NCBI GenBank assembly: GCA_024349725.1
Contig: AP026064.1
Coordinates: 642,592-706,591 of the forward strand
DNA length: 64,000 nt
Origin: Arsenophonus endosymbiont of Ceratovacuna japonica
Lineage (GTDB): Bacteria > Pseudomonadota > Gammaproteobacteria > Enterobacterales > Enterobacteriaceae
Direction: 5' to 3'
Below the pieces are notes generated by a model. The model was given only the letters and a program-made list of their open reading frames with translations. It did not search any database and had not been told where the DNA came from. Shown here piece after piece: positions 12,871 through 38,536 of this stretch. Position 1 is the stretch's first letter. The number at the start of each line of letters is the position of its first letter. Made by a program: the position numbers and the translations under genes.

Positions 12871-14739
12871 TTAAATTAAAAATAATTTATTAATGCGACG
12901 AATAAATTTATTAGGATCTTCTAAACTACCTTGCTCAACAAGTAATGCTTGATCTAATAACATCTCTATCCATTCAGAAAATAAATCTTTATCAATTAAT
13001 TTAATTGCTTTTTTAACTAAAATATGTTCAGGATTAATTTCAAAATTATATTTAATTTCTGGTGTTAATTGACCTGCCGTAGCAAAAATTTTTGCCATTT
13101 GAGTACTCATACCATTAGAATCAGTTGTTACAATAGCAGGTGTATCTGTTAAACGATATGTCAATTTAACTTCTTTTACACGATCACCTAATATTTTTTT
13201 TATTTCTTTAATAAAAATATTTAATTCTTCATTTGTTTCTTTTTGTTCTTTTTTATATTCATTAGCTAATTTTTCTAATGATTCATCACTTTTACTAATA
13301 GATTGAAAAGATTTACCTGAAAATTCTAATAAATAACTCATCATCCATTCATCAATACGATCATATAATAATAAAACTTCAATACCCTTTTTATTAAATA
13401 ATTCTAAATGAGGACTATTTTTAGCTGCAGAATAACTATCTGATGTAATATAATAAATTTTTTCCTGACCCTCAACCATTCGATTAATATAATCTTCTAA
13501 AGAAATATTTTGTAAATTAGAATTATTATAAGTTGATGAAAAACGTAATAATTTAGCAATTACTTCTTTATTAATTATATCTTCTGCTAATCCTTCTTTT
13601 AATACAAGTCCAAATTCTTTCCAAAATTTATAATATTCTTCTAATGTATTTTTAGTTAATTTTTCTAACATTTGTAATACACGCTTTGTTAGTGCATTAC
13701 GTAAATTGTGAGTAATAGTATTATCTTGTAAAATTTCACGTGAAACATTTAATGGTAAATCATTAGAATCAATTAACCCACGAATAAAACGTAAATAATT
13801 TGGCATAAATAAATCAGCTTCATCCATAATAAAAACACGATTAACATAAAGTTTTAAACCATGTTTATTATCACGTTTCCATAAATCAAAAGGAGCTTTT
13901 TTAGGTATATATAATAAACTTATATATTCTTGTTTACCTTCTACTCGATTATGACTCCATATTAAAGGATCTTCATGATCATGAAAAACATGTTTATAAA
14001 ATTCTTTATATTCCTCATTTGTAATATCATTTTTATTACGTGTCCATAATGCATGAGCTTTATTAATTTTTTCCCAAATAACAGTATTATCTTTTTCGTT
14101 TTTAATTTCAATTTCAATTGGTAGAGAAATATGATCTGAATATTTATTAATCACAGAACGTAATCTATGATTATCTAAAAATTCCATTTGATTTTCACGT
14201 AAATATAAAGTAATTTCAGTTCCACGATCTACTTTTTCAATACTGGCTATAGTATAATCACCTTCACCATTAGACTGCCAAAAAACACCTTTATTAATTT
14301 CAATGCCAGCTGCTCTAGTACGCACAATAACTTTAGATGCTACAATAAAAGCAGAATAAAAACCAACACCAAATTGACCGATTAATGAATGATTTTTTGC
14401 ATCTTTTTCATTTAAAGACTGCAAAAAAACTTTTGTACCAGATTTAGCAATAGTGCCTAAATTATCAATAACCTCTTCACGTGTCATTCCAATGCCATTA
14501 TCACTAATTATTATAATTTTTTTCTCTTTATTAATAGAAATTCTAACTTTTAAATCACTATCATTCTCATAAAAATCAGGATGTGAAAGTGTTTTGAAAC
14601 GTAATTTATCTGTAGCATCAGATGCATTTGAAATAAGCTCACGTAAAAATATTTCTTTATTTGAATAAAGAGAATGAATCATTAATTGAAGTAATTGTTT
14701 AGCTTCTGATTGAAATGCACGAGTTTCTTGTTCTTTCAT
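12871..14739 (-). CDS. htpG: Chaperone HtpG (bacterial Hsp90)
   Basis: ATP-dependent dimeric chaperone of the cytoplasm. The 622 residues compare with 624 in E. coli. The N-terminal GHKL ATPase domain shows [21 protein letters not shown] and [12 protein letters not shown] middle domain contains [20 protein letters not shown], and the C-terminal dimerisation domain ends the chain. It lies between dnaX and adk; recR and ybaB, which separate dnaX from htpG in E. coli, are absent. Confidence 0.96.
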
Positions 14740-15249
14740 ACTAATTTAATAACCTTGATTTATATTAATTTAAATTTAAATAATTATTAAATTAAAATGG
14801 GGATATAAATTTAAAATTTCAAGTTTACTTTTATAAAAATAAATATTATTTATTAAAATAAATATAAAATAATAATTATTTATATAAAATAAAATAATTA
14901 ATTATTATTAATTTGAATTATATATTATTAATTTATTTTTAATTAATTTATAATATATATTTATTAAATATAATATATTAATATTTAATTTTTTTAAAAA
15001 AGTTAAAAAAATTCAATTTTTCAAAATATTATTATAACATTATCTAATAATTATAAAATTTTTATATTTTTATTTAACTATATATTATATAATATTTATA
15101 AAATATTAATAAATTTATATATTATAATAAATTAATAAATATTAAAGTAATTTATAATAAAAAAATTACTTTAATAATATTTTAATTAATATTAAATAAT
15201 TTTTTTATAAAATAAAAAATTAATTTTTTATTTTAAAATTTAAACATAA
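14740..15249. other. Gap where recR and ybaB would lie; also downstream of the short dnaX
   Basis: 510 bp of A/T-rich sequence. E. coli carries ybaB and recR here, and neither is recognisable. The region also follows the dnaX stop codon, so any remnant of the tau-specific part of dnaX would be found here; no such similarity was seen. A short G-containing stretch (ATGGGGATAT near 14796-14805) lies about 55 nt upstream of htpG. Confidence 0.45.
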
Positions 15250-16365
15250 TTATAAAATAGTTTCAATATTATTTTCTAATTTAGGATGAAATGCTAATGC
15301 ACGCAATAAAGTCATCTCAACTCCCATTCGTTTTTCTGGTGCATAGGATAATTCTTTTCGACCAATTAATAAAATTTGATAATAAAATTGTAAATCTGTA
15401 GGCATAATTAAACGTGAAAGTAAATATAAACGCTTATATATATAAGATGAAGTATTTTTTTCATCTATAGAAATAAGCTGAATCATTGCAATACGATGTA
15501 ATAATGATAGCATTTCAATTAATACATATTCCCAATTAATATCACGCAAAGCAATATCTTCTACTAAACTCATCATTTTTTGACCATCAGAATAAACTAT
15601 AGCTTCAATAATAGATATTGATTGTTCTTTATCTAAAATACCTAACATTTTACTAACTAAATCTTTCGATATTGTTCCTTGACCCATAACAATTGCTTGA
15701 TCTGTCAAACTTAATGCATCTCGTATACTACCTTCAGAAGCTTTAGCAATTAATTTACAAGCATATTTATCACTAGATATTTGTTCTTCTGCTAAAATAT
15801 ATTCCAATTGATGGCTAATTTGATTAATATTTAATGCTCTCAAATTAAACTGTAAACAACGTGATAAAATAGTTACTGGTAACTTATTTGGTTCTGTTGT
15901 TGCCAATAAAAATTTTACATGCTTTGGTGGTTCTTCTAAAATTTTAAGTAAAGCATTAAAACTATGTTTAGAAAGCATATGAACTTCATCAATTAAATAA
16001 ATTTTAAAACGACCTCGAGAAGGTGCATATTGAACATTATCTAATAATTCACGAATATCCTCAACTTTTGATCTCGATGCAGCATCAATTTCAATTAAAT
16101 CAATAAATAACCCATTAGTTACTTCAAAGCAATTAATACAATTATTACAATAATTTGAACTAATTCCTAATTCACAATTAAGTCCTTTAGCAAACAAACG
16201 TGCAATAGTTGTTTTTCCAACTCCACGCATTCCAGAAAATAGATATGCATGATGAATTCTTTGTTGTTGTAAACTATTAGATAATATAGTTAAAACATGT
16301 TGCTGTCCAACAACATCATTAAATATTTGTGGGCGCCATTTTCGAGCAAGTACTTGATAGCTCAT
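15250..16365 (-). CDS. dnaX: DNA polymerase III clamp-loader subunit, gamma-type only
   Basis: AAA+ motor of the clamp loader that opens the beta clamp. Walker A GMRGVGKT is at 45-52, zinc cysteines at 64, 73, 76 and 79, Walker B DEVH at 126-129 and the arginine-finger SRC motif at 168-170. The chain ends at residue 371, just after the collar region RMGVEMTLLRALAFHPK. E. coli tau has 643 residues and gamma 431. The DnaB-binding and polymerase-binding domains are therefore missing by normal termination, and the family's frameshift site is not needed. Other reduced symbionts are known to carry short DnaX proteins. Confidence 0.94.
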   Translation of the reverse strand: MSYQVLARKWRPQIFNDVVGQQHVLTILSNSLQQQRIHHAYLFSGMRGVGKTTIARLFAKGLNCELGISSNYCNNCINCFEVTNGLFIDLIEIDAASRSKVEDIRELLDNVQYAPSRGRFKIYLIDEVHMLSKHSFNALLKILEEPPKHVKFLLATTEPNKLPVTILSRCLQFNLRALNINQISHQLEYILAEEQISSDKYACKLIAKASEGSIRDALSLTDQAIVMGQGTISKDLVSKMLGILDKEQSISIIEAIVYSDGQKMMSLVEDIALRDINWEYVLIEMLSLLHRIAMIQLISIDEKNTSSYIYKRLYLLSRLIMPTDLQFYYQILLIGRKELSYAPEKRMGVEMTLLRALAFHPKLENNIETIL

Positions 16366-24162: not shown

Positions 24163-25020
24163 TTATCCTAAAAATCCAGCCCAATAACCAATAATACTTA
24201 AAACAAAAAAACCAAAAATTATCCATAATGGATTAACTTTATTCTGCAATAACCACATACAACCAAAAGTTAATAATAAAGGTACTAAACCAGGCATTAA
24301 TTGATTTAAAATAGTTTGTATAGTAGTAATTGTTACTTTTCCAGTTTCTATATTTTTTATCTTAGATATGACTAAAGGAATGTTAACATGAGTCCACTTA
24401 TTAACTAATGCACCCATAACAAACAATCCTAAAATAGAGGCGCCTTCAGTCATTTTTTGCAATAATCCACTACCCATATCATGAACAATATCTAATCCTT
24501 TTTTATAACCATAAATAAGACCATAATAACGTGTTAATAGACGAACTAAGTTAAATAAAATAAAAAATAGTATTGGACCAAGTAAACTACCTGTAATTGC
24601 AATACCTGCACCCAAAGCAGAAAATACTGGACGCACAGTTCCCCAAAATATAGGATCACCAACACCAGCTAAAGGACCCATTAATCCAACTTTAACACTA
24701 TTAATAGTGCTATTATCAATATTTGCACCATTAGCTCTTTGTTCCTCCATTGCCATAGTAACTCCTAATACCGGAGCTGCAACATATGGATGGGTATTAA
24801 AAAACTCAAGATGGCTTTTAATAACTTTTTTTCTTTCTTCACTATTTTCAGGATATAAACGACGAATCACAGGTATCATTGAAAAACAAAAACCAAGTGC
24901 TTGCATGCGTTCAAAATTCCATGATCCTTGAAAGAGATTAGAACGTAAAAAAACCCAACGAATATCACTAGTAGTAAGTTTTTTTTGATTTTTTTGATTT
25001 GATAAAATTATATCTGACAT
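24163..25020 (-). CDS. manZ: Mannose PTS membrane component IID
   Basis: One of two membrane subunits of the mannose/glucose/glucosamine phosphotransferase permease. The 285 residues match E. coli ManZ (about 283), with the cytoplasmic N-terminal segment RSNLFQGSWNFERMQALGF and the GLMGPLAGVGDPIFWGT segment, followed by hydrophobic C-terminal stretches. It is the last gene of manXYZ, 19 bp after manY. Its ribosome binding site is an 8-base G run (minus strand) 7 nt before the ATG, which is unusual in so A/T-rich a genome. Confidence 0.95.
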   Translation of the reverse strand: MSDIILSNQKNQKKLTTSDIRWVFLRSNLFQGSWNFERMQALGFCFSMIPVIRRLYPENSEERKKVIKSHLEFFNTHPYVAAPVLGVTMAMEEQRANGANIDNSTINSVKVGLMGPLAGVGDPIFWGTVRPVFSALGAGIAITGSLLGPILFFILFNLVRLLTRYYGLIYGYKKGLDIVHDMGSGLLQKMTEGASILGLFVMGALVNKWTHVNIPLVISKIKNIETGKVTITTIQTILNQLMPGLVPLLLTFGCMWLLQNKVNPLWIIFGFFVLSIIGYWAGFLG

Positions 25021-25027
25021 TATTATA

Positions 25028-25035
25028 CCCCCCCC
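25028..25035 (-). promoter_or_regulatory. Homopolymeric G8 ribosome binding site of manZ
   Basis: On the minus strand the manY-manZ spacer reads GAGGGGGGGG followed by TATAATA and the manZ ATG. The G8 run (C8 on the plus strand at 25028-25035) is placed exactly where the Shine-Dalgarno sequence belongs. It is the longest G/C homopolymer I noticed in the window. Length changes here would alter spacing and strength of translation initiation. Confidence 0.75.
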
Positions 25036-25039
25036 TCAA

Positions 25040-25840
25040 TTAATCTAATTCATTATCTAATTCACTATTAGCATTGCTTCTTAAATTAGCAACTTCTGAT
25101 TGATTATATTTTGGACTAAGTTGAATATATAAGATTGCCATTATAATACCAATAATACCTAAAGCAACTAAGTTAAAGTTAGTAAATGCAGCAGTTACAA
25201 AACCTAAATAAAAAAAAGGCATTAAATAACCTGTACGCATCATATTAATAACCATTGCATAACCAACAACAACAATCATACCGCCAGCAATATTTAACCC
25301 TTTGGTCACAATTTCAGGAATTGAATTTAATAAATGATGAACTTCTGAAGTACCAACTGAAATAGTAACAATTAAAGAAGGAATAGCAATACGCATTGCT
25401 TGTAATAACAAAGCTGAAATATGAATTATTGTTAATGCACGTAAATTATCAGATTGAGCAGCACGATCAGCAGCATGCTGAAATACAACAGCAATTGTTC
25501 TAACAATAATAGTCAATACTTGACCTGTAGCAGCCAATGGAATAGCTAAAGCAATACCAGTACCAATATCTTGTCCACCTGCAATAACAAGAATAGTAGA
25601 AATAATTGAAGCTAATGCCGCATCTGGAGCTACGGCTGCTCCAATATTCATCCATCCAAGTGCAATCATTTCCAATGTACCACCAATAATTATACCTGTC
25701 TTTAGATCACCCAGAACAAGACTGATTAAACTACAAGCAATTAAAGGACGATGAAATTGGAACTCATCTAAAATAGAACCCATACCTGAAATACAGGCAA
25801 TAAAAAAAACAAGTATAACTTGAACAATAGTAAGTTCCAT
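25040..25840 (-). CDS. manY: Mannose PTS membrane component IIC
   Basis: Sugar-binding membrane subunit of the mannose-family PTS; with ManZ it forms the translocation channel. The 266 residues equal the E. coli length. It is hydrophobic throughout and shows family segments such as GMGSILDEFQFHRPLIACSL near residues 20-39 and AIPLAATGQVL near 100. AGGAGATAAAT precedes the ATG. It lies between manX (66 bp upstream) and manZ (19 bp downstream), one transcription unit. Confidence 0.95.
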   Translation of the reverse strand: MELTIVQVILVFFIACISGMGSILDEFQFHRPLIACSLISLVLGDLKTGIIIGGTLEMIALGWMNIGAAVAPDAALASIISTILVIAGGQDIGTGIALAIPLAATGQVLTIIVRTIAVVFQHAADRAAQSDNLRALTIIHISALLLQAMRIAIPSLIVTISVGTSEVHHLLNSIPEIVTKGLNIAGGMIVVVGYAMVINMMRTGYLMPFFYLGFVTAAFTNFNLVALGIIGIIMAILYIQLSPKYNQSEVANLRSNANSELDNELD

Positions 25841-25906
25841 ATTTATCTCCTATAATCACATAATATTAATAAATATATTTGAATTATTAAACATATAATT
25901 AAAAAA

Positions 25907-26881
25907 TTAGTTTTTTGCTTTTTTAATAAGAGTTAACATATCTAATTTATTATCATTAGATACTTTTCGTGCCTCTAGTTCAATTCCTAATTTTGATAAT
26001 TTATTAAAAGCATTAATATCATCATCATCAATTGAAATTGCATTATTAACTTGAATTTTTCCATCACGATATGCCATACCACCTATATTAACATATTTTA
26101 TTTTAACTCCACCTTCTACAATACGTAAAACATCTGTTGGATTAGTAAATAATAACATTACACGTTCACCAGAATATTTAGGATTATTATATACACGAAT
26201 ACATTTTGCTATATCAATTACATGCGCAGTAACACCTGGTGGCGCAACTTGCTTTAATAAAGTTGAACGAACATGATCTTTAGCTACCTCATCACTTACT
26301 ACAATAATACGTTTAACTTTTGTCTCTTTAGTCCAACAAGTAGCTACTTGACCATGAATTAAACGATCATCAATTCTAGTTAGTGCAATAAACATATGAC
26401 CATGTTTTGATGTTTTGTTAACTAATGGTGTTATAGGAGTTGGTGATATAGATAAATTTTGTGATTTATTTATAATTTGCAAATTATTTAATACTTTAAT
26501 TTCACTTCGTCCAGTTTCAATAGCTGTGTTTACTAATTCGCTAAAAGTAGGATTATCATCTCGTAGTAATAATGTAGCAACTAACATAGGAATATTAACA
26601 CCAGTAACGATATTATATTTCTTTTTATCTTTGCTTTCAATAATTCTACTAGCAGCATTAAATGGACTACCTCCCCATATATCTACTAAAAATAACACAC
26701 CTTGAAATATATCAAGCTCATTAAGCTTTTTATTATATTTTTCAATTAATGTGTCAACATTTTCACCTGGAACAAAATCAATATAGGCAATATTTTTTTG
26801 TTCTCCAATTAACATTTCAGCGGTCATTAATAACTGTTTAGCAGCAACACTATGAGTGCTAATTATAATAGCTACACTCAC
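25907..26881 (-). CDS. manX: Mannose PTS cytoplasmic component IIAB
   Basis: Phosphoryl-transfer subunit that takes phosphate from HPr and passes it to the incoming sugar. It has 324 residues, E. coli 323. The IIA domain carries the phosphorylated H10 (IIISTHS) and the IIB domain carries H176 in RIDDRLIHGQVAT; an interdomain linker rich in Ser, Thr and Pro lies around 140-160. The start is a GTG preceded by AAGGGGAAG; it aligns with the E. coli N-terminus. EI and HPr must be encoded outside the window. Both active-site histidines are intact, so the system is probably working. Confidence 0.95.
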   Translation of the reverse strand: MSVAIIISTHSVAAKQLLMTAEMLIGEQKNIAYIDFVPGENVDTLIEKYNKKLNELDIFQGVLFLVDIWGGSPFNAASRIIESKDKKKYNIVTGVNIPMLVATLLLRDDNPTFSELVNTAIETGRSEIKVLNNLQIINKSQNLSISPTPITPLVNKTSKHGHMFIALTRIDDRLIHGQVATCWTKETKVKRIIVVSDEVAKDHVRSTLLKQVAPPGVTAHVIDIAKCIRVYNNPKYSGERVMLLFTNPTDVLRIVEGGVKIKYVNIGGMAYRDGKIQVNNAISIDDDDINAFNKLSKLGIELEARKVSNDNKLDMLTLIKKAKN

Positions 26882-27717: not shown

Positions 27718-28154
27718 ATAAATATTCTATAATAAAAAATATTTTATCTTATAATGAATATTATTTATTAATTATATTTTATACTTCATTATAATTATTT
27801 ACTAAAAATTATACAATTAAATATAAAAATATTAATATAAAAAATAATTTTGTTATTAATTAAAAATTATTAATAATACATTATAAATAATAATTTAAAT
27901 TTATATGCTAAATTAATAAATTTCATTAAAAAATAATACAATATTTATTTAAATATTAACTATTTATTTTATTATATAAAATTTTATAAAATAAATATAA
28001 ATTAATACTTTTAATAAAATATATAATATTAATTATAATACAATATTATTAATATAATATATCATCAAAATAATAATATAAATATTATATTAATAAAAAG
28101 TAACTTTTATCTATACTGTAAAATAACTAGATATTTATTTTAATTAAAAATATG

Positions 28155-28392
28155 ATTATTTAATTTAAAATAAATAATAATAAAATAATAATACTAATTA
28201 TTAATCAATACTTAAAAAATTAAAATATAACTATGATAATAAAAAATATATAATAATTAATTAAATTTTTCTAAATATATAATTATAAAATACTATTATA
28301 AATATTTAAATACATAACACATTTAATATTAGTAATATACTAAATATAAATTTACTTAAATTTTTAATAAAAAACTAATTAATAGAATAATT
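28155..28392. repeat. Direct repeat, left copy, block 2
   Basis: This block aligns with 29603-29834, for example both carry AAAATATAACTATGATAATA followed by AAAAATATATAA/G and TTAATTAAATTT. It is separated from block 1 by about 450 bp that have no counterpart in the right copy. Confidence 0.6.
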
Positions 28393-29104
28393 GTAAATTT
28401 TTACTAAAATAATTGAATATATATTATAAAATTATTTTTAATAATACATTTAATTACTATATGATAAAGTTAATTTTTATATAATAAAAATTTATATTGT
28501 ATAAAATTTATAATAATAATTATAAATTTTATTCACTTAATAATATTACATAATATAATAAAAAAATAATTATAATAATCAGTTAATATATATAATAAAT
28601 AAAAAATTATATAAAAAAATAAATATTAACAAATTGATAATATATTTAATATTTTTATAATTAAAATTTATCTTTATATATTAAAATTATAAATATAAAA
28701 ATAATAATATTATATTTAATAATCTATGATTAAAATAAATTATATATTAATAATTATAAACTAAAATTATTCATAAACTTTATAATATTTATAAAAATTA
28801 TAATTATACTAATTTATTAATATTAATAAAGATTAAAATAAAAAATATTTATATTATATTATTAATTTAAAATTTAAATTATATAAAAAATTAAATAAAT
28901 ATTTTTATTTGAAATACTTATAACTAATGAGTATAATAAATAAAAAATATATTTATAATGTAAAATATAAAATAAAATAATTATTTTAAAAATAAATTAA
29001 TATATATTCACTTTTTGTTTAAAAAAAATATAAAACTTTTTAATAATACAAATATTTTAAATACTATAATAAAATATCAATTTTAATAAAAAAATGGAAA
29101 ATTA

Positions 29105-29254
29105 ATGTTTTTAAAAACTCCTATATTGAATTATCAGCAACAAAAAGAAGCTGTTAATCGTATACATAAATTAATAGCTAATGGAATGAGCAGTAAAGAA
29201 GCAATTACTTTAGTTGCAAAAGAAATACGTATAAAATACACTACTAAAAAATAA
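29105..29254 (+). CDS. yoaH: UPF0181 family protein YoaH
   Basis: Small conserved enterobacterial protein of unknown function. The 49-residue frame contains the family core EAVNRIHKLIANGMSSKEAI and TLVAKEIR, close to E. coli YoaH (59 residues), which has [20 protein letters not shown]. It ends about ten residues early, losing the acidic tail. A weak TGGAA precedes the ATG at about 7 nt. In E. coli yoaH lies next to pabB, not far from manXYZ; pabB is absent here. It is the only gene in a 5.6-kb desert, flanked by a pair of direct repeats. Survival of the core without stops implies it is still selected. Confidence 0.85.
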   Translation: MFLKTPILNYQQQKEAVNRIHKLIANGMSSKEAITLVAKEIRIKYTTKK

Positions 29255-29400
29255 TTATATATATTATATTTTTATATCATTTAACATAAAATTAATATTA
29301 TTATTGTTAATAATAATTTTATATTAAAAATTAAAAATATAATTATTATAAAATAATTATATTTTAAAAAAATAATATTATTTTTTTTAAAATTATATAA

Positions 29401-29596
29401 TAATATTTTATTATTATTAATATATAAGTAACATGTATTATAAAATTTATATATATTATTTTTTAGCTTATCATAATGTTTAATATAAATGCTTTAAAAT
29501 TATTAAATTTTAATTTACTATATAATTTAAAACAATTAAATATATTAAAATTTAATAATATTATAAATCAAAGTAATTTGTTATTTTTTATTAAAA
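29401..29596. repeat. Direct repeat, right copy, block 1
   Basis: Counterpart of 27511-27706, lying 1.89 kb downstream on the same strand. The best-conserved part is 29512-29562. The palindrome seen in the left copy is not preserved here, though the segment TTATTTTTTATTAAAA remains. Confidence 0.6.
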
Positions 29597-29602
29597 CTAT
29601 TT

Positions 29603-29834
29603 TTAAATTTAAATTAAAAACAATAAAAATAATAATATTAATTATTGATTAACATTTAAATAGTTAAAATATAACTATGATAATAAAAAATATATAAGAA
29701 TTAATTAAATTTTCTAAATGCATAATTATAAAGTATTATTATAAATATTTAAATAAATAATATATTTAATATTAATGATATAATAAATATAAATTAACTT
29801 AAATTCTGAATAAAAATTGATTAATAAAATAATA
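29603..29834. repeat. Direct repeat, right copy, block 2
   Basis: Counterpart of 28155-28392. Here block 2 follows block 1 directly, so the right copy spans about 434 bp while the left copy spans about 882 bp. Confidence 0.6.
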
Positions 29835-31507
29835 ATTACATTAATTTTTATAAATATTACTAAATATTAAAATAAACTTATTATCTTTATTAAGATAATA
29901 ATTTAAATATAATATACTTTTAAAATATTTATTATTATATATTAAATTATGTATTAATAAATTATATTTTTATAATATAATTTATTTAAAATTAAAATAT
30001 GTATATAAATATAAATTAAAAACATATTTTAATTTAATAGTAAAAAAAAATATTAATAAATTTTATTAAGTTTAAATATTATTCATTTAAACAAAATAAT
30101 TTTTAAATTAAAATAATAAAATATTTTAAAATAATTATCATTTATTTATTATTAACTTTACTAAAATAATTATAATTTATTCATTTAAACTTTTCATATT
30201 TAATAAATAATTAAAATTTAAATTAATATTATTAAATATTAAATATTTTATTTAAATATCTTAAAAATAAGATATATAATTATTTTAATATACATAAAAA
30301 TATTTATATAAATATTACATTTATAAAATACAATATTCAATATGTATATATTTAAATATTATATTAATTATATTAATTACAAGCAATATTAATTATTAAT
30401 AAATAATTTTATTATTAATATTTTATAAATATTAATAATAAAATATTTTAATTATTATTTTATTTAAATTTATCATTTATCTTCTAAATATTAATATTTT
30501 ATAAAAATATAATTAAATAAAATAAAATAATATTAATAAAACTAATTTATACATATATTAAATTAATTATAATTATTTTCATCAAATTAAATAAATTTAT
30601 CTATTTAAATAACAATAATTATATAATTTTAAATTAAAATTTAGTAAATTTATTTAATAATAAATAATAAAATAAATATTAAAATTCATACTTAATAAAT
30701 ATATTAAAACTAAAAATAAAAATTTTAATAAAAATAAATTAAAAATTATAAAATATAAAAAATATTTATATTAAACATTAATATATTATTTAAAAAATAA
30801 TAATTAATTAAAAAATTAAACATATTAGTATTTAAGATAGTTAATATTGATATACAAATATAACACTAATAACATTTAGTAATTATCATACATTAAAAAT
30901 TTAAAATTTTAATATTATAAAAGATAATCAAATAATAACATAAACAATTATATTAAAATTATTTTATATTTATTATAATTATAATAAATATTATATTTAT
31001 AGATATTTCATTATTTATAATAATATTAAAAACTATAATATTCACTAAACTTAAATAAGAACATCAACATACTATTGTGAATAAAAGAATTATTTTAATA
31101 TTTACTAAATATTATTATAAAGCATTTAATTTAGATAAAATTTCTCTATTAATATTTTTAATAAACATTTAAATTTACTTTATTATAATCATAATATTTT
31201 TTAGAAATTATATCAATAAATTTATTAATATTAAAAATAAAAAAGAAAGTAAGATATATCTAAAAAATTATTTTTATTTATAAAAATACAAAATTTTATA
31301 TTATAATATTAATTCGTGACAATATTAAATTAAAATATAGATCTGTAAAATTCATAATTAAAAATACTAGTAAGAAAAAATTAGTTAACTTAATGTTTAA
31401 TTTTTTATATTGGTTTAATTAATAATGTTAAAATACAGTTATAAAACTAATTAAAAATTATATAATAGTTCCTTATTATTAATTTACGTAATAATATAAG
31501 TAATTAC

Positions 31508-32220
31508 TTAAGTAAAGCTATACTATTATTAAGTTTATTTATTTAAATAGTCTAATCGTTCAAATATATGATAAAAATAAAAAAATCAATCAAAATATAT
31601 ATAATGATAATATAATTTATTATAAAAAACCATTTATGATATTAATTAATCAATTAATCACTATAGTATAAGAAATTTTTACATATTCAATTCAAAATTA
31701 TTGTTATTCATTAATTATTAGAGAATCATATTTTAGTAAAGGACTGTTTAATAATACTATCCTTCAAGTCATATTTATAATTATATGTTGCATCCAGAAT
31801 AGATTGATTTAGGTTATGTCTAATATATTATTCAAAAATTTTATCGTATTAACGGTAGCAATATACAATGTAAAGATTTAACACTTGATATTATTATGAT
31901 AACTAATATAAATTTAAATAAAAATAGAAAAAGATATTGAAGATAATATTTTATCTTGAAATGATATTAAATTAATTAAATATGATATTTTTAATAAAAA
32001 TAATTAATATATTTTTAATTTAAAAATTAATTATAAATAATATATATCAAGAAATATTGAATTTAAATATATTAAAAAACATTATATATTATAATAAAAT
32101 TAAATTAAATAAAAAATATAATTTCATTTAATTTCCTAAAAAAAGAAAAAAGAAAATAAAAAATATAATATTCTTAAACTACATCTTATTAATTAACATT
32201 TAATTCAAAAAGGAAATACA
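31508..32220 (+). pseudogene. rpoC: Decayed rpoC-like 3' segment (RNA polymerase beta' C-terminal part)
   Basis: No open frame exists, but translating the plus strand with frame changes gives pieces that follow the C-terminal part of beta' in order. YYKKPFMILINQLITIV (31618 on) resembles EARRPKEPAILAEISGIV. LIIRESYFSKG resembles the VREGDYVKKG barrel. YIIQKFYRINGSNIQCKDL (from 31824) resembles [34 protein letters not shown] (from 32170) resembles GLKENVIVGRLIPAG. The distance from the PHDIL-like to the LKEN-like piece is 412 nt, against about 390 in E. coli rpoC. In-frame stops and shifts show it is dead. The alignment is by eye only. A functional rpoC must exist elsewhere, so this would be an extra or acquired copy. 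Confidence 0.45.
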
Positions 32221-35053: not shown

Positions 35054-38000
35054 TTAATTAAATTCTAATTCTATCTGCTGATTACCTAATATAGTTCTCA
35101 AGTCAATTAGAAGATTATCTGTTAAGGTAACTTTCCAATTAATATCTAATTTTAATTTAATACGAGAATTTTTATTTTGATAATAAAAATTAACTGGTAT
35201 TTTTCCTAAACAATAAGGTTTCAATATACTGTAAATACAATTTAATAATTGATTATTTATTTGCTCTGATAATAATAAAATAGATATACTATGAACATAT
35301 TTTTCACGAGCTTCACTAAGATCCATTAATTTATAAACAGACATTTTATTAGAATTACTAAAATTATCAAATTTAACTTTACCTGTAGCAATTAATATTT
35401 TATCTTTCTTTAATAAATGTTTATATTTTTTTAAATAATCAGAAAACAATATAATATCCAAGTATCCAGAACTATCATCTAAAGTATATATACCTATTTT
35501 ATTACCATGTTTAGTTATTATAATTTTTTCTGTCAACACTAAACCAACTATCGTTAATATTTGTCCTATTGGAAGCTGATTAACGTCCTTTAATTTTAAC
35601 CCATTAGTATAATATTTAATTTCTGATAAATAAGAAGTAATAGGATGACCAGTTAAATAAAAACCTAATGTTTCACGTTCACCTTCTAATACAATACGTT
35701 CAGGCCATTTTGCTACATTTATATAAGATTTTTTAATTTGTTCAGTAGTTTTATTTAAAATACCAAACATATCATTTTGTCCAATTATTTCTGACTTGGA
35801 ATATTGATTTGCAGTTTTTAAAGCATCTTCTAATAAAGACATAAGTGCAGCACGATGTGGACCTAAATTATCAAAAGCGCCAGATATAATTAATTTTTCT
35901 ATAATACGACGATTTATTTTTTTAATATCTACACGCGTACAAAAATCATAAATTTCTTTAAAATAACCACCTTTTTTACGAGATTCAATAATAGATTTTA
36001 TTGGTGATTCACCAATACCTTTAATTGCTCCAATACCATAAATAATTTCACCAACATCATTAATATGAAAATGATATAATCCACTATTTATATCTGGTGG
36101 TAATACTTTTAAACCTATACGCTTACATTCATCAATTAAACTGACTATTTTTTTTGTATTATCCATATCAACTGTCATAACTGATGCCATAAATTCAGCC
36201 GGATAATGAGTTTTTAACCAAAGTGTTTGATAAGAAATTAATGCATAAGCAGCAGAATGTGATTTATTGAATCCATAACCCGCAAATTTTTCTAATAAAT
36301 CAAAAATTTTTATACTTAATTTAGCATTAATACCATTTTTAACTGCCCCATATTCAAAAATTAATCTCTGTTTTGACATTTCTTCAGGATTTTTTTTACA
36401 CATTGCTCTACGAAGAATATCTGCATTACCTAATGTATAACCAGAAAGTACTTGAGCGATTTGCATGACTTGTTCTTGATAAAGAATAATACCATAAGTG
36501 GATTCTAAAATTGGTTGTAATAATTTATGTTGCCATTTAATATCAGGATAAGAAATAGATTCTCGGCCATGCTTACGATTAATAAAATTATCCACCATGC
36601 CTGATTGCAAAGGACCAGGACGAAAAAGTGCAACTAAAGCTATTATATCTTCAAAACAATCTGGTCGCAACCGTTTAATTAAATCCTTTATACCACGAGA
36701 TTCTAATTGAAATACTGCTGTAGTTTCTGCCTGTTGCAATATATTAAAACATTTTTTATCATTCATATTAATCATAGATATATTAATAGGAATTAAATTT
36801 TGTTTTATTCTACGTTTATTAATCATATTCATAGCACAATTAATAATTGTTAATGTCTTAAGTCCAAGAAAATCAAATTTTACTAATCCAACATCTTCAA
36901 TAGCACTTTTATCAAATTGAGTCAGTGGATTCTTTCCTTCAGAGTCAAAATAAAGTGGAGAAAAATCTGTTATTTTAGTAGGTGAAATAACTACTCCGCC
37001 AGCATGTTTACCTATATTACGCACTATTCCTTCAAGTTTCTGAGCCATATCTATTAATACTTTAACTTCCTCATCAGCATTATAAATCTCTTGTAATTGT
37101 GTTTCAATAATAAATGCCTTTTCAATAGTCATACTAAAATCTAAAGGAATTAACTTTGCAATACGATCAACAAATGTATATGGATAACCTAATGCCCTAC
37201 CAACATCACGAATAACTGCTTTTGTAGTCATGGTACCAAAAGTGATAATCTGTGAAACAGATTCGCGACCATATATTTGTGTTACATGCTCTATAACTTG
37301 ATCTCGTTTTTCCATACAAAAATCTATATCAAGATCAGGCATAGAAATGCGTTCAGGATTAAGAAAACGTTCAAATAATAAATTAAATTCTAATGGATCC
37401 AAATCAGTAATTTTTAGTACATAAGAAACTAATGAACCTGCACCTGATCCTCTTCCTGGTCCAACTGGTATATTATTATCTTTTGACCATTGAATAAACT
37501 CCATTACAATTAAAAAATAACTAGGAAAACCCATTTTATTAATTATGTCTAATTCCATATATAAACGCTTATCATATTTAATTCTTTTTTTAATTCTATC
37601 GTTTTTATCTGGATAAAGTAATTGTAATCGTTCTTCTAAACCATCTTTAGCGCACTTAATAAAAAAATCTTTAATTGATATATTATTAGTAGGAAATTGA
37701 GGTAAAAAATATTTTCCTAAATTAATTGTAACATTACAACGTTTAGAAATTTCAATGCTATTTTCAAGTGCTTCAGGAATATCTATAAATAATTCAATCA
37801 TTTCCTGTTCACTACGTAAATATTGTTGAGGACTATAATTTTTAGGTCTTTTTTTATCAGAAATATTAAAACCATTATGAATAGCTACACGTATTTCATG
37901 AGCAATAAAATCATCTTTATTAACAAAACGAACATTATTGGTAGCAACAACTGGTATATTTTTAATGGATGCTAATTTAATAATTGAATGCAAATAACTT

Positions 38001-38536
38001 TCTTCATTAGGATGTCCAGTTCTAGTAAGTTCGAAATAATAATTATCTTTAAAATGTACTTGATAAAAATTTAAACATTGATCAATTAATTTTTTATTTC
38101 CAGATAATATAAATTTACCTATATCACCCATATACCCACCAGAAAGTAATAATAAACCATCTTTATATTTTATAAGCCATTCTTGTTTAATTGTTGGTCC
38201 TATTATATTATAACCTTTTTGATAAGCATTTGAAATAAGTAATATTAAATTATGATAACCTATATTATTTTTAGCTAAAATGGTCAAATGAGCAACTTCA
38301 TCACCAAGTAATTCACTTTCTATATAAAAATCAACACCAATAATAGGTTTAATACCAGAGGCATGGGCAATACAGTAAAATTTTATTAAACCATAAAAAT
38401 TAGTAAAATCAGTAATCGCTATAGCAGGCATACCTAATTTCGCTACTAAATTAATAAGCGAATTAATTTTTACTAATCCATCAATAATAGAATAATCAGT
38501 ATGTACATGTAAATGTATAAATCGTGATTTAATCAT
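35054..38536 (-). CDS. dnaE: DNA polymerase III alpha subunit
   Basis: Replicative DNA polymerase of the C family. At 1160 residues it has the same length as E. coli DnaE. The N-terminal PHP domain starts with [11 protein letters not shown]. The palm carries the catalytic aspartates in [16 protein letters not shown] near residue 400, with [14 protein letters not shown] just before. The thumb, beta-binding, OB-fold and C-terminal domains follow. The C-terminal domain that binds tau in E. coli is still there, although tau is missing from this dnaX. rnhB, normally upstream, is lost. Confidence 0.96.

Follow-up and report, generated by a model that had tools for sequence, protein, structure and literature searches.

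The dnaX locus and the replicase genes of the window

The window, by which we mean the whole stretch of 64,000 nucleotides that was analysed, carries both dnaX and dnaE on its minus strand. The features needed in the following account are these:

12871..14739, minus strand: open reading frame of 622 aa from the ORF list, the next gene behind dnaX, which bounds the space for tau
14740..15249, no strand: AT-rich gap from the dnaX stop to the next gene, 510 bp, 4.1% G+C, no tau remnant
15250..16365, minus strand: dnaX, 371 aa, AAA+ ATPase domains I–II and the collar domain III (the gamma part) only
35054..38536, minus strand: dnaE, 1160 aa, DNA polymerase III alpha, full length
35057..35302, minus strand: tau-binding C-terminal domain of DnaE, residues 1079–1160 (bounds of the rate test), retained but diverged
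35765..35779, minus strand: internal beta-clamp-binding motif QNDMF of DnaE, residues 920–924, from an alignment of 98 DnaE

The dnaX frame is open from the ATG start to the TAA stop over 371 residues, and the architecture of its product is that of domains I–III. Pfam places in it the ATPase, the lid and domain III (PF12169, residues 233–358) and nothing behind, PF12168 and PF12170 both being without a match in the 371-residue protein. Among the NCBIfam models TIGR02397 (dnaX_nterm) scores 436.9 bits (cut-off 250), only positions 1–363 of the 655 in the gamma/tau model are matched, and PRK14961, a model of 363 positions, is matched at 1–361 under its cut-off (531 versus 562 bits), so that the short form of DnaX is already represented in NCBIfam. 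The gamma chain 1jr3 (373 residues), matched at 1–363, is among the best-scoring solved chains. By Pfam, NCBIfam and the solved chains alike, domains I–III are complete in the DnaX of the window, and the initial annotation was right to let the protein end at residue 371 behind the collar.

The same annotation had described DnaE as being of full length with its tau-binding domain, which is borne out by the 1160 residues of the frame, by the position of the DnaE C-terminal domain model PF20914 at residues 1103–1151 and by a co-linear alignment of residues 3–1160 to 3–1160 of the solved alpha 5fku, which we take to be E. coli alpha. The function of QNDMF as a clamp-binding motif is assumed from E. 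coli alpha. In the alignment of 98 DnaE the C-terminal end of the window protein (14 letters) is still well conserved, which suggests that some constraint may remain on it. The genes holC (chi) and holD (psi) are open frames with scores over their cut-offs, and holB (delta'), whose inspection had been proposed, is a frame of 332 aa with both delta' Pfam domains. The bearer is probably host-restricted, judging by the size of its genome, the 19.4% G+C of the whole window and a kinship code common with the Arsenophonus genome G003.

Two further stretches of the window may be recorded here. A mannose/sorbose-family PTS (IIA-IIB, IIC, IID) is kept at 24163–26881 in this very small genome, and the 4-kb stretch at 28001–32000 has 8.2% G+C and no ORF of at least 120 aa.

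Search for a tau arm in the window genome

The window belongs to a genome (G000) of 853,149 bp in one contig that is 99.54% complete. In the whole of this genome the model of tau domain V, PF12170, gave no candidate at E ≤ 10 and the model of tau domain IV, PF12168, gave no match, so the search for a separate tau C-terminal gene that had been suggested in the initial annotation found none with either model, and this candidate was rejected. E. coli is the one control that scores over the PF12170 cut-off, and the same model detects decayed or fragmentary tau in other symbionts (5e-18 in G037 and 1.7e-5 in G373). It can miss a distant tau, being silent in two genomes of other families (G076 and G092) whose DnaX frames have 774 and 520 residues. 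The PF12168 model is insensitive: it matches 26 of 59 genomes and misses G021, in which tau V is intact.

The 510-bp gap behind dnaX, which is closed by the 622-residue frame (presumably htpG), has room for 170 codons as against the 289 positions of a tau-tail profile built from 29 long DnaX proteins. The reading frame of dnaX meets stops within the gap, no ORF of at least 40 aa lies in it, and the profile yielded only noise there (best i-E 6); in other genomes the profile recovered tau in three frames (G037) or in a shifted frame (G016 and G045). Eight tau tails compared with the gap by tblastn reached 14.2 bits, the median of 40 shuffles, which preserve single-base content only, being 15.4 and their maximum 19.2. 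Runs of six or more A occur in dnaX only at codons ~262 and ~302, and between codon 302 and the stop there is no run of at least six. The slippery A run of E. coli type, at about codon 430 in a long zero frame, has no counterpart in a frame that ends at 371, nor does the window show the reversed layout, in which a run of A directly precedes the stop and tau can be read in an open frame beyond it. In the reversed dnaX described in the excerpted text of PMC5009743, gamma is encoded in the zero frame and tau is obtained by frameshift.

Such layouts do occur among the other genomes. In G065 (L100) and G089 (L101), of 2.3–2.4 Mb, the dnaX zero frame ends directly behind ten A and the frame of tau domain V goes on in the −1 frame; this is the reversed layout, whose tau can be made only through a frameshift or slippage. 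In G060 (L096) and G085 (L098) there are nine or ten A in a row and the −1 frame is open; PF12170 has no match there.

A full tau might nevertheless be concealed by a sequencing or assembly error, or by a frameshift that is corrected by slippage, and an error with the tau domain readable downstream had been allowed for from the start. Frameshifts of this kind are published for Blochmannia dnaX (excerpts of PMC3017870) and are seen in G016 and G045. In G003 dnaX lies at a contig edge, which makes its end less sure, and for the 663,125-bp genome of the Arsenophonus of Aleurodicus dispersus the available text of PMC6167482 reports an unclosed gap with a dnaX duplication. The window dnaX itself has seven A at codon ~302, but slippage there would shorten the protein. 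The profile, the tblastn search, the stops in frame and the positions of the A runs were all negative for a rescue of tau by frameshift or slippage, which we reject; the room for 170 codons against 289 profile positions points the same way, and the DnaX of the related G008, with 364 aa, ends at nearly the same place. We consider a concealed tau extremely unlikely. The loss of tau in the window genome is a clean loss and not a frameshift, since the gap is too short for the tau arm of the relatives, has 4.1% G+C and holds no remnant.

Tau loss among the relatives

A DnaX match was obtained in all 98 genomes compared (that of the window and 97 relatives), although the match in G071 and G075 is weak and may represent another clamp-loader gene, and tau V was found in 78 of the 98. 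Among 392 sampled genomes of the window's family, 97 are without tau V by PF12170. Fifteen DnaX proteins without tau V were aligned (14 from the window's family, and the DnaX of G081), and 13 of them, from 11 genus codes, have 358–374 aa, about the length of the solved gamma chain 1jr3 (373 residues), the exceptions being the longer proteins of G015 (498) and G041 (567). In the window's genus code six genomes of 1.9–3.9 Mb carry DnaX frames of 660–677 residues with tau V, and three genomes of 0.66–0.85 Mb (G000, G003 and G008) have a short DnaX without it. The stages of decay range from intact tau (G044 and G046) through a shifted frame (G016 and G045) and six stops (G037) to tau that is gone.

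On the side of dnaX where the window has its 510-bp gap, G004 and G008 have ybaB. The long dnaX of G004 is followed directly by a ybaB-type ORF, and in G008 ybaB (identified by Pfam) lies 803 bp behind the short dnaX, this gap having 15.3% G+C. Its position and size hinted at a tau decayed in place, which was rejected because tblastn gave 19.6 bits against a shuffle maximum of 23.9.

Intermediate forms were also encountered. DnaX frames of 522–577 residues without a domain V match are present in G015, G041, G136 and G223, where the arm is partly kept and the polymerase-binding end is gone; of these only G015 has a full DnaE, that of the other three being cut.

The tau-less DnaX is not peculiar to the window genome and represents a recurrent and published form of reduction. 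Our case is a further instance of this known reduction, real and ordinary in kind. What gives it value is the comparison across genomes, whose pattern raises the likelihood of uncoupling above what could be drawn from the window by itself.

Loss of the DnaE C-terminal domain in tau-less genomes

Of the 75 family genomes without tau V that were examined, 21 encode a DnaE from which the C-terminal domain is cut off; of the 64 with tau V, none does. The count comprises 59 genomes of the first draw and 80 later ones; 22 of 83 newly drawn tau-V-less genomes (including G439) lie outside it, the membership of these 83 being deduced from numbering gaps and tallies, a count on which G439 rests. Seven genomes with a disrupted or fragmentary tau V (G016, G037, G045, G130, G373, G319 and, only at E 0.0035, G208) are counted as tau-V-bearing among the 64 and were kept separate in the rate and pair tests. 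The 64 also include G036 (49% complete, with pseudogenes) and G002 (split frame), both of which reach the end of DnaE in pieces.

Fisher's test on all these genomes, which are not independent, gives 9e-7. Uncorrected for relatedness, p is 6.7e-4 against the 29 tau-V-bearing genomes of at most 2.4 Mb and 0.0043 by genus code, the 21 cuts falling in 11 of 38 tau-V-less codes versus 0 of 24. With both sides limited to genomes of at most 0.9 Mb the result is borderline (21/73 versus 0/11, two-sided p = 0.058), and because the genomes without tau are smaller as well, much of the contrast could be due to general erosion. A quick DnaE tree with long branches was built from residues 285–880 in 96 rows, with cut DnaE taken preferentially and not as a random sample; G060 and G085, of another family, were left out, and six genomes of the family of G081 were used both here and in the rate test described below. 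Loss of the domain needs nine changes on this tree, at least five of them forced by well supported branches. The independent-pairs sign test is underpowered: it has about two informative pairs, no pair runs the other way, and the median p is 0.5. On the tree the row of the window falls outside its genus, so that its placing is unsure.

Twelve of the 18 aligned cut DnaE terminate close behind the OB fold. Ten end at the equivalent of window residues 1071–1093; in G136 and G244 the last residues are spread further by the aligner, the blastp matches stopping at 1079 and 1081, and the DnaE of the tau-less G270 (Candidatus Providencia siddallii officinalis) ends at ~1075. Another six (G013, G207, G294; G128, G248, G322; two genus codes) end 1–6 residues behind the clamp motif, as in QIDMF-E-stop, so the motif survives the loss of everything behind it. 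A 2005 study by Dohrmann and McHenry, cited in PMC13220808 and PMC10850973, reportedly found, to judge by its title, that alpha needs no clamp site other than the internal one to replicate processively. In G136, G182, G223 and G262 the DnaE match extends past a stop, so that remains of the domain can still be read beyond the cut.

Two groups of genomes call for separate mention. In genus code g163, which we take to be Blochmannia, G281, G349 and G408 (0.8 Mb) have tau V and a full DnaE, and G182 (0.75 Mb) has no tau V and a cut DnaE; differing in tau V and in the DnaE domain, they would form a good pair for comparative biochemistry. In G153, G262 and G335 (g134, ~0.3 Mb) the DnaE matches contain two to six in-frame TGA, and that of G262 also four TAA, which suggests either that TGA is read as tryptophan or that the gene is decaying. 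On account of the in-frame TGA, G335 and G153 are out of the DnaE alignment and tree, from which the G262 sequence is absent too; all three are counted as cut within the 21 of 75.

A DnaE frame of normal length is kept in 54 of the 75 tau-less genomes, although in four of them (G103, G210, G232 and G311) the last 34–54 residues no longer align. This retention, together with the conserved last residues of the window DnaE, may indicate that the domain has a second job, such as a contact with the loader core, SSB, epsilon or DNA, and that the loss of tau merely lowers the constraint on it. Such a job is compatible with a loader of the gamma type alone, but the cuts in 11 tau-less genus codes, and the faster divergence of the domain where tau is missing, count against it, and we find the proposal rather unlikely. 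The retained frames, and the fact that Pfam still recognises the domain in the window, could also be taken as signs that the function of tau has passed to another protein, be it a separate tau-C gene that has diverged or an unrelated linker in contact with both the DnaE C-terminal domain and DnaB. PF12170 could overlook a diverged domain V, as happens with the long DnaX of G076 and G092; the model sees tau in G037 and G373, however, and offers no candidate in the window genome, while the cuts in 11 genus codes speak against a general replacement, and we give a transfer to another protein very little credence.

In the excerpts of the open-licence papers searched, with DnaE truncation alone not among the queries, we found nothing on the loss of the DnaE C-terminal domain after the loss of tau, which is weak evidence of novelty.

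Divergence of the retained DnaE domain

The rate test used distances to 26 reference genomes of at least 1.9 Mb, mostly free-living, and expressed the divergence of the C-terminal domain as a ratio to that of the DnaE body. This ratio is 1.2 among the references and 2.43 in the window. Its medians are 1.80 in 18 tau-bearing reduced genomes, 2.30 in the seven genomes with disrupted tau and 2.70 in 21 tau-less genomes (tau-less versus tau-bearing reduced, p = 1.1e-4, relatedness uncorrected), and when the genomes are matched for body divergence 13 tau-less ones have 2.64 versus 2.35 in 10 tau-bearing ones (p = 0.024). Taken relative to the OB fold, the matched values of 0.88 (tau-bearing) and 1.24 (tau-less) are not significantly different (p = 0.13; unmatched, p = 0.0017), and the OB/body ratio does not differ when matched (p = 0.69; unmatched, 0.069). 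G225, which bears tau, has a C-terminal domain/body ratio of 2.86. These distances give moderate support to the view that the domain may have become relaxed after the loss of tau.

A comparison of DnaE C-terminal conservation between genomes with short and long DnaX had been suggested in the initial annotation, and its outcome is faster divergence, and cuts, where tau is missing. The retained domain in the window DnaE is no evidence for a hidden tau, because it diverges faster in tau-less genomes and is cut off in other tau-less lineages.

Chi, psi and a possible order of losses

Chi is missing in 9 of the 59 first-draw family genomes, and all nine are without tau V. Chi and psi are both kept in G000, G008 and G023, which lack tau V; in G003 chi is broken and psi was not found. 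These data fit an order of events in which tau would have been lost first, followed by chi–psi and, separately, by the DnaE domain. The order is not universal, since G062, outside the family, has tau V and neither chi nor psi.

Coupling may be kept by other contacts, namely those of chi–psi with SSB and of primase with the helicase and the loader. In favour of this, holC and holD are present in the window genome, whereas chi is lacking in 9 of the 14 genomes without tau V in the first family draw. Chi is missing only where tau V is missing (9/9, among 59 genomes), however, so chi–psi is no general compensation, and we regard coupling by such contacts as unlikely.

A proposed replicase with gamma only

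In DnaX, domain III binds delta, delta', chi and psi, domain IV binds DnaB and domain V binds alpha. The window genome has no detectable tau V, it carries the genes of chi, psi and delta' along with a complete DnaE, and across the genomes examined the pattern is one-sided. We propose that the gene makes gamma only. Truncation just behind the collar would have removed the helicase-binding domain IV and the polymerase-binding domain V, and the DNA behind would then have eroded. A clamp loader of the gamma type, composed of DnaX with delta', chi and psi, would still load the sliding clamp; the DNA polymerase III core would be recruited and kept on DNA via the intact clamp-binding motif of DnaE instead of tau, and the leading and lagging polymerases and the DnaB helicase would not be joined by DnaX. 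We put the probability of this reading, in which the clamp rather than tau holds the polymerases, at about 0.7. With no tau to hold, the DnaE C-terminal domain would drift, and in other tau-less lineages it is cut off. The initial annotation is borne out in part. Tau is absent by every test made, as it stated; that the polymerases are uncoupled we infer, as the most economical consequence of that absence.

Tau is the indispensable form in E. coli, so its loss should be costly, and this counts against a loader of gamma alone. Forks without the tau–DnaB contact advance by tens of nucleotides per second. Simple arithmetic with a rate of this order, 35 nt per second, gives ~3.4 hours for the copying of 853 kb by two forks, which a slow symbiont could probably tolerate; slow forks would be tolerable owing to the small genome and the slow division of such symbionts.

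The comparative data may further be read as an ordered dismantling, in which the tau arm of DnaX goes first, the DnaE C-terminal domain next and, in the smallest genomes, everything behind the clamp motif last, leaving this motif as the C-terminus of independent, clamp-tethered polymerases without a tie to the helicase. Taken with all its parts together this reading is tentative, and we would put it at slightly worse than even odds. If it is true, these lineages possess a natural minimal replicase. Textbook models of the coupled fork place tau at the centre of its organisation, and lineages that repeatedly lose tau are natural experiments on which ties are dispensable: biochemists can draw from them loaders with gamma only and trimmed polymerases, and the need for polymerase–polymerase–helicase coupling becomes directly testable. 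That the handle is cut, in the genomes examined, only where the arm is gone supports from the side of evolution the view that tau binding is a main job of the DnaE domain.

Comparison with known systems

A tau-less DnaX has already been published for Serratia symbiotica in PMC5013485, the excerpts of which state that PF12168 and PF12170 are lost and point to experiments in vitro in which gamma suffices. Like the window, this is a shortened DnaX in a reduced gammaproteobacterial symbiont; it differs in belonging to another lineage, and the partner domain of DnaE is not dealt with in the excerpted text of PMC5013485. Portiera of Bemisia tabaci resembles the window as a symbiont with a reduced replicase, but according to the excerpts of PMC5322561 it has lost the loader genes outright (dnaX and holA, holB, together with dnaN), whereas the window has lost the tau arm only. 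The dnaX of Blochmannia is likewise a symbiont dnaX with a compromised tau, having a poly(A) frameshift in the tau part; there the frame of tau can still be read, and slippage may restore it (PMC3017870, in the part available), while the tau of the window is gone.

A further parallel is E. coli gamma. In the available text of PMC13220808 and PMC5872134 gamma is a truncated form of tau, tau links the helicase and alpha, and both are made from one gene; in the window no tau was found and there is no A run near the stop. Gamma is dispensable in the reconstituted replisome according to the excerpts of PMC13220808. The E. coli protein (1jr3, 373 residues), the product of a programmed −1 frameshift, has the same domain content and nearly the same end as the DnaX of the window, and the likeness extends to the genes for delta', chi and psi, which are present in the window genome.
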